From Butyricicoccus faecihominis (GTDB lineage Bacteria; Bacillota; Clostridia; Oscillospirales; Butyricicoccaceae), in NCBI RefSeq assembly GCF_024462775.1, contig NZ_JANGCE010000002.1, positions 203,122 to 267,121 on the forward strand: a stretch of DNA of 64,000 nucleotides. The letters are read 5' to 3'. Position 1 is the first letter of the stretch. Every line of letters begins with the position of its first letter. A program made the position numbers and the translations under genes. Under the pieces are notes generated by a model. The model did not search any database and was not told where the DNA came from. It worked only from the letters and a program-made list of their open reading frames with translations. Below, in pieces: positions 3,712 through 8,875 of the stretch.

Positions 3712-3855
3712 TTACCATTGCATGGCGTATTGCGCATAGGTATCCGCGTTAATTTCTTCCAACGCCACACCGTCCATTTGTTTAAAAAGCGTACTGATTA
3801 CTTTGCTGACGCTCCACGGCGGTTTTACTTTTTGCATTACCAAGCCGTTCTGCAT
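3712..3855 (-). CDS. 47-residue ORF behind the phosphoesterase-NTPase-HD gene
   Basis: An ATG-initiated ORF (MQNGLVMQKVKPPWSV... to ...DTYAQYAMQW). It starts 8 nt after the stop of the 1207-residue gene, and GGAGTGA, overlapping that stop, could serve as its ribosome site. I do not recognise a family; there is no membrane segment or signal peptide. The tight coupling suggests a companion peptide, but at this length it could also be a gene remnant or chance. Not resolved. Confidence 0.4.
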   Translation of the reverse strand: MQNGLVMQKVKPPWSVSKVISTLFKQMDGVALEEINADTYAQYAMQW

Positions 3856-3863
3856 ATAGAATA

Positions 3864-6800
3864 TCACTCCAACTCAAACTTTTGCAGCGGTACATCATAC
3901 TCTTGCGCGGTTTCTGTAAACGCCCTATTGTTCGCGATGATAACGTTAAATATTTTCTTTCCCTCATCGGTACGGATCGTGTTGACCGCCTTCCAAAAGT
4001 CTAAAAAGCGTGCCCGGGTCAAATGCAATTCTCTTTTATGCAAAAGCGTGAGCAGCTTATAAAGCATTTGCAGTTTATCGATATCTTTTGCTATTTTTAT
4101 ATTATAATCCGTGATCGTTTGATCATCCCAGCTAAACCATAGCTTCAGATATTCCGTCAAATCTGCTACATCGCGGTGCGTGCCAGATAAGAACACCTTC
4201 TCGCAGTAATTGCTTTCCAGCTCTTTCATCCCCTCATATTGCACGCAGCATGGCGGGTAATCGCCCGTATAGGCCTCGCCCATATCATGTATCAGCAGCA
4301 TATTGAGAATTTTTTGCTTATCATAATCACTATGGGTATAGCTTTTGCTTGGCAGGAACAGCAATCCGATCAAATACGCTTCAAACACATGCTCGAGCGT
4401 GGTTTCATGCTGCTCGCCGTTCTGAACGATTCGTAAATAATCCGCTTTGCTTAAGCTGTCTTGTTTATCCGGGATGCACCAGCCAGTCTTTTTTACCCGT
4501 TCCAACTGAGACAATTCTTCCAAAAGCGCACCGGGATCAAAGAGATCGTCCGGACGCAGAGCATCCCCCGAACGCATTCTTTCTTTACACGTTTCAAAAG
4601 CAGTCTTTTGATGAATAAGATACTGGATAAAAAGTTCCTTCCTGTTCGTTTTTTGAAACCGTCTGACATAGATATCGATTATTTCAATCAGTGATGATAA
4701 AATATTAATTGCCATAGGGTCGTCATATGTATTATATTTACTGTTGTAAAAAAAGGAACGGATTTTCTTTTCGCTGTTTTTTCTCAGTGCAAGGGGCGAA
4801 TCAATACGAACCTGCACCAGATCGCATAGGGTGAAAAGTTCCAGCCGCAGCAAGGGATAGTGCTTATTTGCACCGATCCGCGTTTTCAAACGGCTCGCTA
4901 AAAGATGATACGTATTGTAAATATCAAACCCTTCGTATACGACATCCTCTCTGATCGAAATGTCTTCCGCCTTCCGATCGCCGTAAAATTGCAGGTAAAA
5001 ATCGCGATTGACCTTTCTCTCCCATTTATCGGACAGCAACCGGTCGATGTACGCGTCAATCATTTCATCTTGGTTGTTAGAATTTGCAATTCTGCTTAAA
5101 CAGATCGACCGCTTCGCAACAGAAAACTCATAAAAATCCGCACTTGCAATCGTTCCTGCTTGCGCCAGCTGATCCAAACTTTGTTCCTGCTCTGCCAAAA
5201 GTTGAAGAATTGTATCGTTATCTCCCCGCGTGCGGCCCAGCAGGTGCGAAATCGTTGATTTCCCAGTATACGATAGCTTGTCATATTGTAACTGCGCAAA
5301 CGAGATCATTTCCGCATGCAGATTCAATTTGTCTACAAAGCCCCGGATATAAGAACAAATTTCGTGTCCATATAGCTGATCCAGACCTGAATGTGGCGAT
5401 ATTTCCGTGATGGCTTTCACGTTTTGCGCGCTAAGTACATAGTTCGCTGCAAGCAAATACCTTGCAATCAGCTTTTGGGTTCGGATTACTTCAAAATCCT
5501 GATTGCTGATCTGCTTGACATGCTCACGGATCCAAGTATAATTCTTTTGCGGTTTCCCCATGTACAGGTGATAGCTCATTTCTGCCGCTTTTGCTATATT
5601 GGCGTTCCCCAGTTTAGATCTAACAAAGTCATCTAACATATCAAAGAAGGTGTGTGTATTTCGCTTGCACAGGTATTCTCCAAAAACAACCAGTATGTTC
5701 AGGTCGATCTCTAGAATCTGCATTCTATTGATATTTTCCATGATACAGTCATACGTATCGTCTTCATAGCTGTTCAAATCGCAAAACGCCCTGATAAAGT
5801 TTTCATATTTGATCGTAGAATTGACCTTATGTGTTCGGATCCGGTTGAAATAAATTAAATATTCGGCATCGCGCGCGATTTGCTGCGGCGTAAACTCAAG
5901 ATTGAGATCCTCATCCGTATCGATCCCATAAATAAAGTGTGCATATGGCTGAAACTCTTTGCTATTGATCGTTTGGTCGATCATTTTCTCAATGCGTGCG
6001 TTATGATAAAATACATGCTGGCTCAGTCCATCTATCATGCAGCACGGCCGGCAGTTGTATTTCTTCGACAGATCTAGTCCCCGTCTGAGTATATCTTCTA
6101 CCTTCCGTTTTATTTTATTGACATAGGCTGCCGAATCCTTATTCTCATTCTGTCGGGAATGCGTATGAATAATCTCTTCCAGATTGATATAGATCGGCAA
6201 AAAATCAAAGGTACCGCTGCCAAACTTATAAAGCAAATTTAAATAGGTGATTGACATAAAAAGGCTTTTCCCTAGTCTGGCTTCGCCCCTTAATGTTACG
6301 CTTACCCGTTTTTCAGATTTCTGGATCAATTGTGATAGTGTATTGATCAAACCATCCTTCGCACTGATTACGTTGCCTGCCATGCCCGCTTGCGGCTGCT
6401 GCAGGGTTGCAAAGGAACGGAAAAGAATGTCGATCAATCTCCATTCTGGTCCGGAACGAACCGCCTCAAAGCTCTTGACCCGTTCCGCCAGATTGTGCAC
6501 CTCTTTTGTACCGAACAAATACCGTAACGCTTGCCGTTTGAGCGACGATTCACTCAGCTCCAAAATCCGCTCGATGTCATTGAGAGAACCGACAATTTGC
6601 CATTTCTCATCCTTGTACACGATCGTACGGTGATAATACTGATTGGTATCGCTGAATTGGTGCAAGCCGCATGTGATATGGTCGCTATCCAAGGGCGCGC
6701 CGACAATATAGTCATAATTATGCGCGCTATCCGTATGCTTATCGCCATATAGCTGCAAACCGAACAGTGTTTCTATTTGGTCAAGAACAGCGGTGTATTC

Positions 6801-7487
6801 GTTTTCCGGGTAGGTCAACAAGGCGTGCTCACAATAATCCGTTCTCGGCGCATGAGCCACCAATACATTGTGCTGCTTGCTTAAATTGTTTTTCGTTTTA
6901 ATCAACGCATCTTTGTTTTTCTCTATGTTTTTTTCAATCGAATCGCAATCCACGCAAAGCTTCTGCGTACCTTTATCAATCCAATGGCTGTTTAGAACCA
7001 GAAAATTAATTCCTTCAATTTTCCTGAAATGTGTTTCATAGGTGTTTTTCTTCATGATCATTTTATCAATGAACCGGCTGATCAAGGAAAATCTCCTATC
7101 GCCATATTCCACATTATGCAATTCGCAAACCACCTTGTTATTTCCGGCAGCGAACATATTGACATCATGATTACCGCAGCATATGATCATTCTGTTATTC
7201 GCAATATCAAGTTCCCGCATCAGATAGGCAAAGTACTTTTCGGCCAATGCAAAGGCTGTGCTGGCTTCCTTTTCCCATAGCGCCGCCTTTTCTTCCGCCG
7301 AAGAGGATTCTGGAATACGCCGTCCGATACATTTGCTATCAATTACATCCCCGTTATATACCAAAATAATATTCGATAGGTTGAGCCCCTTGATAAAATC
7401 CACCATTGTGCAAAAAACAACATTGTCCTCCGGCTCCCCCATTGTCGCTTTGATATGAAAATCTGACAGCTGAAGGATCGTTTTCAT
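3864..7487 (-). CDS. Metallophosphoesterase / P-loop NTPase / HD-domain fusion protein (putative defence protein)
   Basis: A 1207-residue, apparently cytosolic protein with three parts. Residues 1-300 form a calcineurin-like phosphoesterase: QLSDFH (D9, H11), NGDVID (D47), CGNHD (N106, H107, D108), VAHAP (H212) and YGDKH (H251; the usual GHxH has Asp for the first His). Residues ~390-500 hold a Walker A, GEARLGKS (401-408), and a Walker-B-like PCCMIDG (D486). About 500 mainly helical residues follow, as in STAND sensors. Residues ~1000-1160 form an HD domain of YfbR/HDDC2 5'-deoxynucleotidase type: LEHVFEA (H1033), LIHDMGEAYTGDYP (H1067, D1068) and AKDIDKLQML (D1135). The start follows AAAGGTG. 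The gene is clearly AT-richer than its neighbours, which suggests transfer. Domain calls are from motifs; a nucleotide-attacking, infection-sensing role is inference. Confidence 0.85.
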   Translation of the reverse strand: MKTILQLSDFHIKATMGEPEDNVVFCTMVDFIKGLNLSNIILVYNGDVIDSKCIGRRIPESSSAEEKAALWEKEASTAFALAEKYFAYLMRELDIANNRMIICCGNHDVNMFAAGNNKVVCELHNVEYGDRRFSLISRFIDKMIMKKNTYETHFRKIEGINFLVLNSHWIDKGTQKLCVDCDSIEKNIEKNKDALIKTKNNLSKQHNVLVAHAPRTDYCEHALLTYPENEYTAVLDQIETLFGLQLYGDKHTDSAHNYDYIVGAPLDSDHITCGLHQFSDTNQYYHRTIVYKDEKWQIVGSLNDIERILELSESSLKRQALRYLFGTKEVHNLAERVKSFEAVRSGPEWRLIDILFRSFATLQQPQAGMAGNVISAKDGLINTLSQLIQKSEKRVSVTLRGEARLGKSLFMSITYLNLLYKFGSGTFDFLPIYINLEEIIHTHSRQNENKDSAAYVNKIKRKVEDILRRGLDLSKKYNCRPCCMIDGLSQHVFYHNARIEKMIDQTINSKEFQPYAHFIYGIDTDEDLNLEFTPQQIARDAEYLIYFNRIRTHKVNSTIKYENFIRAFCDLNSYEDDTYDCIMENINRMQILEIDLNILVVFGEYLCKRNTHTFFDMLDDFVRSKLGNANIAKAAEMSYHLYMGKPQKNYTWIREHVKQISNQDFEVIRTQKLIARYLLAANYVLSAQNVKAITEISPHSGLDQLYGHEICSYIRGFVDKLNLHAEMISFAQLQYDKLSYTGKSTISHLLGRTRGDNDTILQLLAEQEQSLDQLAQAGTIASADFYEFSVAKRSICLSRIANSNNQDEMIDAYIDRLLSDKWERKVNRDFYLQFYGDRKAEDISIREDVVYEGFDIYNTYHLLASRLKTRIGANKHYPLLRLELFTLCDLVQVRIDSPLALRKNSEKKIRSFFYNSKYNTYDDPMAINILSSLIEIIDIYVRRFQKTNRKELFIQYLIHQKTAFETCKERMRSGDALRPDDLFDPGALLEELSQLERVKKTGWCIPDKQDSLSKADYLRIVQNGEQHETTLEHVFEAYLIGLLFLPSKSYTHSDYDKQKILNMLLIHDMGEAYTGDYPPCCVQYEGMKELESNYCEKVFLSGTHRDVADLTEYLKLWFSWDDQTITDYNIKIAKDIDKLQMLYKLLTLLHKRELHLTRARFLDFWKAVNTIRTDEGKKIFNVIIANNRAFTETAQEYDVPLQKFELE

Positions 7488-7848
7488 AGTATCACCTTTT
7501 ACCTATTCCGTTCATTTGTAGCTTCAGTCAGTACAGTACTCAGTAACAGCAGGCGGCAGGCTGCTGATCGTTGCTCGCAGAGTATTGCATAGGAGTTTAC
7601 GGCAAATTGGATTCGTCATAACGACCACACTCCCCTTGCCGCCGCCCACTTGTTTTGTATATATTATATCATACTATTTCAGAATTTCCACCTTATCCTT
7701 GGTCATTTTGGGACATTTTAGAAGTTTTGTTTGTTTTGAATATCAAAGCAAATAACGCGGAACAGTCTATTACGAGTGTAGTCGAAGTCGGTGCATAAGA
7801 GAGGCCACTTATATCGTCGCATCTAAAAAGTTTATAAAAATCGCAAAA
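7488..7848 (-). other. Leader and promoter region of the phosphoesterase-NTPase-HD gene
   Basis: No gene seen in this stretch. On the minus strand a possible promoter has -10 TATAAT (7663-7668) and a weak -35 TGGAAA (7685-7690, 16-bp spacer). It would give a leader of about 170 nt, long for this window. The leader contains inverted repeats, including CAGCAG / CTGCTG at about 7547-7566 and GTACAGTAC near 7531-7539. Either a structured 5' UTR or an unrelated spacer would fit. Confidence 0.35.
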
Positions 7849-7888
7849 AGACCGCCCAACACATCATTTCTAACGTGTTGGGCGGTCT
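7849..7888 (-). terminator. Intrinsic terminator of tRNA-Pro
   Basis: A perfect 14-bp stem (AGACCGCCCAACAC / GTGTTGGGCGGTCT) with a 12-nt loop and a T-run on the minus strand, just downstream of the tRNA 3' end. Confidence 0.88.
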
Positions 7889-7895
7889 AAAAATA

Positions 7896-7972
7896 TGGTC
7901 GAGGTGACAGGATTTGAACCTGCGGCCTCTTCGTCCCGAACGAAGCGCTCTACCAAGCTGAGCCACACCTCG
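7896..7972 (-). tRNA. tRNA-Pro(CGG)
   Basis: A full cloverleaf of 77 nt with an encoded CCA end. The acceptor is CGAGGTG / CACCTCG, the D-arm stem GCTC / GAGC, and the anticodon stem CTTCG / CGAAG around the loop TTCGGGA (anticodon CGG). The T-loop is TTCAAAT. A consensus promoter lies upstream and a strong terminator downstream. Confidence 0.97.
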
Positions 7973-8005
7973 ATTATGCTGTCTTTTTCCTGTGACAGCT
8001 TTATT

Positions 8006-8059: not shown

Positions 8060-8875
8060 TTATATATGGGAGATCAGCGCGAGGATGAACGAACGGAACA
8101 CGGGGCCGCGCGCGGCGGCGATTTCGTTTACCTCCGCGCCGGATAACGGCTGCATCAGAACGCCGGAAGCCATATTGGTGATCATCGCCACGGCGGCAAC
8201 CGGCAGGCCGCAATGCGCGGCGGCGATCGCCTCGTACACGGTCGACATGCCGACGGCATCCGCGCCGAGCGCGCGGAACGCGCGAATTTCGGCGGGCGTT
8301 TCAAACTGCGGGCCGTTCACACCGCAATAAACACCGTGGCGCAGCGCAATACCGCAATCCGCGGCAGCCTGATTGGCCAGTTCACGCAGAGCGGGCGCAT
8401 AGGCAAACGTCATATCCGGAAAGCGCGTACCCAGCGCCGCATCGTTTGGACCGGTGAGCGGGCTCTTGCCGGTCATATTGATATGATCCTCGATCAGCAT
8501 CAGGTCGCCGACCGAAAAGTCCGTATTGATACCGCCCGACGCATTGGTCAGCACCAGCGCGCGCACGCCGAGCGCCTGCATGACATAAACCGGAAAAGCG
8601 ATGTCCGCGGGCTCGTAACCCTCATAGCCGTGCAGGCGCCCCTGCATGCACAAAACGGTTTTGCCCGCCAGCTTGCCGCAAACGAACCGGCCCACGTGGT
8701 CGGGCGCGGTAGAGGTTTTAAAGTGTGGAATCTCCCCATAGGGCACAAAGACCGCGTCCCCAATCTCATCGGCGATCGGGCCCAGCCCGGAGCCGAGCAC
8801 TAGACCGATTTCCGGCTTTTGCGATAGCCGCTTCGCGACGGCTTCCGCCGCCTGCCGTACCTGCTGATGATCCAT
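8060..8875 (-). CDS. punA: Purine nucleoside phosphorylase (PNP class I, trimeric type)
   Basis: 271 residues, normal length. It shows VLGSGLGPIADEI (phosphate loop), MQGRLHGYEGY, LTNASGGIN, GVNGPQFETPAEIRAF and the base-recognition stretch DAVGMSTVYEAIAA with MITNMASG. The enzyme splits inosine and guanosine (and deoxy forms) with phosphate to free base and (deoxy)ribose-1-phosphate. The ATG follows GGAAGGAG. It lies 18 bp downstream of the amidohydrolase gene, so the two probably form a purine-nucleoside salvage operon. Confidence 0.95.
   Translation of the reverse strand: MDHQQVRQAAEAVAKRLSQKPEIGLVLGSGLGPIADEIGDAVFVPYGEIPHFKTSTAPDHVGRFVCGKLAGKTVLCMQGRLHGYEGYEPADIAFPVYVMQALGVRALVLTNASGGINTDFSVGDLMLIEDHINMTGKSPLTGPNDAALGTRFPDMTFAYAPALRELANQAAADCGIALRHGVYCGVNGPQFETPAEIRAFRALGADAVGMSTVYEAIAAAHCGLPVAAVAMITNMASGVLMQPLSGAEVNEIAAARGPVFRSFILALISHI

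Follow-up and report, generated by a model that had tools for sequence, protein, structure and literature searches.

A candidate NLR-type receptor of Butyricicoccus faecihominis with an HD domain as likely sensor and a metallophosphoesterase as likely effector

Which part senses and which part acts in a protein that carries a metallophosphoesterase, a nucleotide-binding switch and an HD domain on one chain? The question is raised by a gene of 1,207 codons on a 64,000-nucleotide stretch of Butyricicoccus faecihominis DNA (contig NZ_JANGCE010000002.1, positions 203,122 to 267,121; hereafter the window). A preliminary description made from the sequence had read its product as a sensor with two hydrolase effectors. 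The three-part architecture behind that description holds up for the phosphoesterase, the NTPase and the HD domain alike. On balance, we favor a single-protein receptor of NLR type (NACHT/STAND) in which the C-terminal HD domain is the likely sensor and the N-terminal metallophosphoesterase the likely effector.

The N-terminal part resembles calcineurin-like phosphoesterases in both its metal-site motifs and its predicted fold. The site comprises D9, H11, D47, D50, N106, H107, D108, H212 and the block G248-D249-K250-H251, and it is unvarying in an alignment of 52 rows, except in two rows that start after H11. This alignment omits P0002 and P0113, which duplicate P0001 and P0047, as well as the shorter proteins P0010 and P0042. 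A complete calcineurin-like motif set had been described at first; all of its blocks are present, but the last reads GDKH in the window protein, in place of the textbook form GHxH. In a model of relative P0018, the closest folds of this part are YydB and SMPDL3A, and a literature search on YydB found nothing on its function. Of the 45 proteins from the first relative search, nine are listed with the Pfam model PF00149, which exceeds its cut-off in most of the distant rows. Four cysteines (Table 1) are as unvarying as the catalytic residues (52/52 rows), a pattern that suggests a structural zinc.

The middle of the protein, first described as a STAND-like NTPase, is indeed predicted to adopt an NTPase fold. 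An AlphaFold2 (AF2) model of residues 320–780 reaches a predicted local distance difference score (pLDDT) of 93.4 and a predicted template modeling score (pTM) of 0.91, and its best Foldseek matches are NLR NACHT modules, with NOD2, NLRP3 and NLRP1 filling the top eight rows. The Walker A motif GEARLGKS stands at 401–408 as described, followed by the Walker-B-like D486-G487. The module thus combines the Walker A lysine and Walker B aspartate with a predicted NACHT-type fold that extends beyond the P-loop core. The Pfam family NPHP3_N exceeds its cut-off in relatives P0112, P0123 and P0125. Bacterial Avs structures match the full-length model weakly (AVAST5 at rank 31, E 0.047) and are not among the best 50 rows for the core model, which is not evidence of absence. 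At the C-terminus, the YfbR/HDDC2-type assignment stands: Pfam HD_3 scores 56.7 bits over a cut-off of 22.5, and H1033, H1067, D1068, E1071 and D1137 are all present. The narrower PF12917 (YfbR-like) stays below its cut-off in the window protein (20.1 versus 25.9). The NACHT, HD and phosphoesterase folds are predicted by models, and the three-part layout, the unvarying phosphoesterase site and the Walker lysine and aspartate are read from sequence.

Table 1. Features of the gene and its flank, in window coordinates
Feature	Coordinates	Strand	Evidence
Whole gene, 1,207 aa	3864..7487	minus	ATG to TGA open frame, plus relatives
Metallophosphoesterase domain, residues 1-300, likely effector; invariant Cys121, 178, 181, 219	6588..7487	minus	52 rows; fold match of P0018 model
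Predicted NACHT/STAND module with the helices after it, residues 320-780	5148..6530	minus	AF2 model, Foldseek NOD2 E 1.3e-8
Walker A GEARLGKS, residues 401-408	6264..6287	minus	K407 in 52/52 rows
Walker-B-like D486-G487	6027..6032	minus	D486 in 52/52 rows
Helical region, residues 781-980; shared motif NR-F-x-L-x-(F/Y)-Y-G-D (N827 to D837)	4548..5147	minus	N827 in 110/110 rows of the C-terminal alignment
YfbR/HDDC2-type HD domain, residues 981-1207 (start approximate), likely sensor	3867..4547	minus	
tRNA-Pro(cgg), outside the system	7896..7972	minus	Upstream of gene; in G004 a 43.6-kb island joins at its 3' end

The same architecture recurs in other proteins. A search of 5.8 billion proteins, which scored only candidates sharing most words and is not exhaustive, returned at least 45: the window copy, 38 near-full-length relatives at 34–54% identity, two shorter proteins (P0010, P0042) and four that combine a related C-terminal part with a different N-terminus. 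The layout exceeds what chance would give, since these 38 proteins have it in common and their phosphoesterase, Walker and HD residues do not vary (again except in the two rows whose sequence begins after H11). A second search with a TIR relative (P0045) found 67 proteins including the query, and a third with a distant relative (P0047) found 17 including its own copy. In all, the NACHT-helical-HD core is found in 127 proteins, fragments included, behind phosphoesterase, TIR, nucleoside phosphorylase (PNP) or winged-helix N-termini. Our own profiles label 53 rows phosphoesterase and 51 TIR; Pfam adds three PNP and one winged helix. Relative P0043 has an OmpR-type DNA-binding N-terminus (Trans_reg_C, 44.6 bits over 26.2). 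Nineteen of the 127 rows carry no N-terminal label; they include fragments and three rows that Pfam calls TIR. The C-terminal alignment covers 110 of 112 proteins (without P0002 and P0080).

A tree of the core (78 rows, 575 columns) needs 11 changes of N-terminal label, against a mean of 35.9 in shuffles, and separates the phosphoesterase rows from all others by a branch with support 100. It is a quick tree (LG+G4), with long branches for P0046, P0109 and P0124 and a warned join between P0111 and P0046. Its columns span P0001 395 to 1015, so that the first residues of the HD part are in and the HD catalytic residues are out; its rows were thinned at 62% identity and omit P0010, P0042, P0057, P0080, P0083, P0088 and P0093. 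Labels were changed by hand to TIR for P0098, P0127 and P0129 (Pfam) and for P0079 and P0093 (by eye), and to GNAT-TIR for seven rows. Seven TIR-type proteins of 1,207–1,227 aa (P0081, P0082, P0084, P0087, P0090, P0091, P0092) bear an extra N-terminal domain, which may be a GNAT acetyltransferase; Acetyltransf_1 is seen in P0081 only, below cut-off.

The state of the HD site bears on the roles of the parts. Among 127 of 129 proteins (without P0002 and P0113, with fragments such as P0010, P0042, P0080, P0083 and P0088), 111 retain all five HD residues, 14 have an altered set and two have none, one of them the fragment P0080. A single clade of phosphoesterase proteins accounts for 11 of the 14 altered rows; the other three are P0109 and P0110, both TIR proteins, and P0111, a PNP protein. 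In the clade, D1068 has become E and E1071 has become K in 11/11 rows, D1137 is K in nine and N in two, and H1067 is S in eight, A in one and H in two. G1002, W1003, E1028, H1033, K1057, D1076, P1079, N1129 and Q1140 are retained in all 11, residues that would line the ligand pocket, as in YfbR/HDDC2-type enzymes. Mean pairwise identity within the clade is 45.2% for the HD domain, 39.8% for the phosphoesterase, 38.2% for NACHT and 41.7% for the helical region. P0125, the nearest neighbor of the clade on the tree, stops short of the HD domain, and the more distant P0124 has an intact one. The helical region and its unvarying motif persist in all three HD states, P0125 included.

HD catalysis can therefore be lost while the fold and other residues stay constrained and the phosphoesterase site stays invariant, the pattern expected of a sensor and an effector. 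Because N-termini are exchanged, the altered-HD clade keeps its phosphoesterase site and one relative lacks the HD domain altogether, sensing most likely falls to the HD domain and the effector role to the phosphoesterase; the exchange and the altered clade are themselves observations from aligned sequences. The earlier proposal of two hydrolase effectors is not supported, since the HD domain is the common C-terminal module of a family whose N-termini are exchanged, altered in a conserved manner in one clade and missing in one relative, and the phosphoesterase site is invariant in 52 rows. In that proposal, the phosphoesterase and the HD domain would both destroy nucleotides once switched on, the HD domain as a deoxynucleoside mono- or triphosphate (dNMP/dNTP) phosphohydrolase that starves the phage. 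We consider this unlikely: the 111 intact rows speak for it, as does the mention of HD as a possible effector at the C-terminus, in the animal NCOA6 clade only (PMC8195603, in part), whereas the 11 conserved alterations and the HD-less P0125, all with the phosphoesterase site retained, speak against it, together with the further altered sites in the TIR and PNP rows.

How might such a receptor work? At rest, the NACHT module would hold ADP. An infection signal would bind the HD domain or helical C-terminus, the likeliest ligand being a deoxynucleotide or some other phosphorylated compound, and would trigger nucleotide exchange and oligomerization, and the assembled phosphoesterases would cleave a nucleotide phosphoester, stopping infection. 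As most members keep the HD catalytic residues, the HD domain may also hydrolyze its own ligand and so limit the signal. Nucleotide sensing is the bold part of this scheme, proposed because the altered HD domain is constrained and sibling effectors act on nucleotides or NAD. It leads to a wider and more doubtful possibility: a bacterial NLR family that reads the nucleotide pool, with a dNMP-phosphohydrolase fold as sensor of a NACHT switch and with interchangeable effectors (phosphoesterase, TIR, nucleosidase, DNA-binding), self-limiting in general or a pseudoenzyme in the one clade with lysines at former catalytic and metal-binding residues. By analogy, the protein may serve in anti-phage defense; we infer this role from its likeness to DS-8 (see below), from the TIR and PNP siblings and from its patchy, acquired nature.

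If true, this would add a branch of bacterial NLR-type immunity whose sensor is a repurposed nucleotide-metabolizing enzyme, and the trigger would therefore be a small molecule raised by phages, such as deoxynucleotides from degraded host DNA, and not a phage protein. The opposite view, that a phage protein binds the helical region as in Avs-type receptors and that the HD domain plays an accessory role (such as switching the protein off or helping it assemble) without sensing any nucleotide, strikes us as improbable. It gains from the persistence of the helical region and motif in every HD state and from the phage proteins that defense NACHT domains typically recognize (PMC13092281, in part); it loses because the altered HD domain is as conserved as the rest of the protein and keeps nine residues that hardly vary among intact HD domains, more than a spacer needs. 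Intact, altered and missing HD domains on one effector form a natural series for testing sensor against effector.

Several observations count against the domain assignments or against an NLR-type receptor with an HD sensor. The window protein has no match at E ≤ 1 to PF00149, nor to any Pfam NACHT/STAND model, to any PADLOC-DB 2.0.0 family (Avs and others) or to the DS-8 model NF053861 (cut-off 790 bits). By VIA Z score, AAA+ proteins tie with the NLRs, at lower root-mean-square deviation over fewer residues. The 11 altered rows are one clade and thus probably one event. With the HD residues intact in 111/127 rows, catalysis by this domain matters to the majority of the family. All 11 altered rows have lost W1120, which does not vary across 40 intact rows, and this loss led us to lower our estimate of nucleotide sensing slightly. 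Finally, the evidence from neighboring genes comes from four context loci without a control.

The reading frame itself is secure. The preliminary description named no strand; the plus strand over 3864–7487 contains 33 stops. Two genomes of the species, the source assembly and G004, carry the gene intact, with 1,205 of 1,208 translated positions identical (stop counted). A chance frame or an assembly artifact is rejected in view of the intact copies in these two genomes and of the 38 other near-full-length relatives. The gene is AT-rich against its neighbors, as first described: its guanine-plus-cytosine (GC) content is 0.429, versus 0.578 in the rest of the window, and the four 1-kb segments from 4001 to 8000 lie at 0.424–0.442. 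Two small features flank it on the minus strand. A 47-aa open reading frame (ORF) at 3712–3855, a gene or a remnant, starts about 10 bases 3' of the stop codon, and a promoter-like site with an extended –10 element lies 5' of the gene at 7663–7690 (10/12 matches); chance matches are common in such a scan.

The gene is rare, and it sits at a variable site. Of 25 genomes of the genus, two carry it, and both belong to B. faecihominis. Among whole genomes at E ≤ 1e-20, with its own genome counted each time, 3 of 394 in the order have a match, as do 1 of 391 in the class and 1 of 398 in the phylum; two of the three order-level matches are full-length, both in this species, and the third is confined to profile positions 14–170. 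On the far side of the tRNA-Pro(cgg), the gene at 8060–8875 is present in 23 of 25 genus genomes, and the tRNA is found at 22 of 24 loci around its matches. The opposite side of the tRNA varies: of ten other species in which 9 kb were read, six have a common gene set, by eye a sugar-transport operon, and four have no listed gene in common with the others. An eleventh (G001) offers 895 bases only. In G004, a 43.6-kb stretch separates gene and tRNA, and its ends overlap the last six bases of the tRNA gene; the window strain does not have it. This stretch (L051–L053; G004:C1, about 2458391–2501975) carries ORFs of 3,967, 3,078, 2,579 and 1,310 aa and a 284-aa ORF that looks, by eye, like a tyrosine recombinase. 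The gene itself appears to have been acquired at this tRNA-side site, with no visible recombinase of its own.

Searches of mobile elements gave little. With tblastn, no match was found in 72,556 plasmid records or in 50,697 phage records; in viral contigs, query A1 matched nothing and query A3 gave one short match, to query residues 788–869 only (HD part). A phage- or plasmid-borne system is rejected on these searches. Least probable in our estimate is a metabolic or stress regulator outside defense, one that would sense nucleotides and in turn tune their levels or transcription, for although P0043 carries a DNA-binding N-terminus and the window protein matches no defense family, the narrow distribution, the foreign base composition and the TIR and PNP siblings, whose domains are known conflict-system effectors (PMC8195603, in part), all oppose it.

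Among five proteins neighboring the relatives, PADLOC assigned one at L003 to PDC-S25 (E 7.5e-8) and weakly to ThsA, one at L004 to Avs2 (E 8e-21), and three to nothing; L006, a 3.9-kb contig, had its neighbors outside the scan. As there is no control for the four loci, we claim no enrichment of defense genes. Upstream of the L003 relative (L003:5431–8798), the PDC-S25 gene, SIR2-like and 373 aa long, overlaps a 749-aa gene without a PADLOC match, a possible defense pair. At L004:9983–13446, the relative is split across several frames; a transposase-like ORF comes next, with the 763-aa Avs2-like NTPase further on.

How does the protein compare with known systems? The preliminary description knew of none with this architecture, which stands for the whole protein; the pairing of metallophosphatase and NACHT, however, has been described and tested as DS-8 (PMC13092281, in part). 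DS-8 (DefensePredictor; NF053861, DS8_antiphage) is a single anti-phage protein with an SMPDL3A-like metallophosphatase and a NACHT domain, and mutating either part abolishes defense (PMC13092281, in part). The window protein shares that layout and adds an HD domain, a term absent from the main text of PMC13092281; the likeness is one of layout. The sole NF053861 match in the same genome lies on another contig, at 20.4 bits. In DS-9A (NF053862, anti-phage phosphoesterase), too, the metallophosphatase is needed for defense (PMC13092281, in part), but DS-9 is a two-gene system with an HAD phosphatase. The DS-9A model aligns to window-protein residues 77–212 at 20.9 bits, far under its 420-bit cut-off, and membership in DS-8, DS-9 or a PADLOC family is rejected on model scores. 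If our reading is true, metallophosphoesterase effectors would extend beyond DS-8 and DS-9.

A 2021 survey by Kaur, Burroughs and Aravind describes TIR, PNPase and calcineurin-like domains as N-terminal effectors that take one another's place on other STAND or TRADD-N proteins (PMC8195603, in part). The same interchange on a STAND core is seen here, but the C-terminal parts in the survey are other domains, such as the lectin-like FGS. Another paper names HD domains in HEPN-CBS proteins, not behind a STAND NTPase (PMC3710099, in part). Within open-licence PubMed Central, as far as its texts could be searched, 'STAND NTPase' and 'HD domain' appear together in PMC8195603 only, and an HD domain behind a bacterial STAND NTPase was not found. 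The animal NLRs NOD2, NLRP3 and NLRP1 share the predicted fold of residues 320–780, but at about 10–13% sequence identity in those alignments and with other sensor and effector domains. The sensor of an animal NLR is its leucine-rich repeats. In the fold and catalytic residues of its HD domain, the window protein resembles the deoxynucleotidases HDDC2, YGL101W and YfbR; whereas these are small stand-alone proteins (PDB chains of about 170–215 residues), here the domain is the C-terminal part of an NTPase receptor, and one clade carries an altered form of it.

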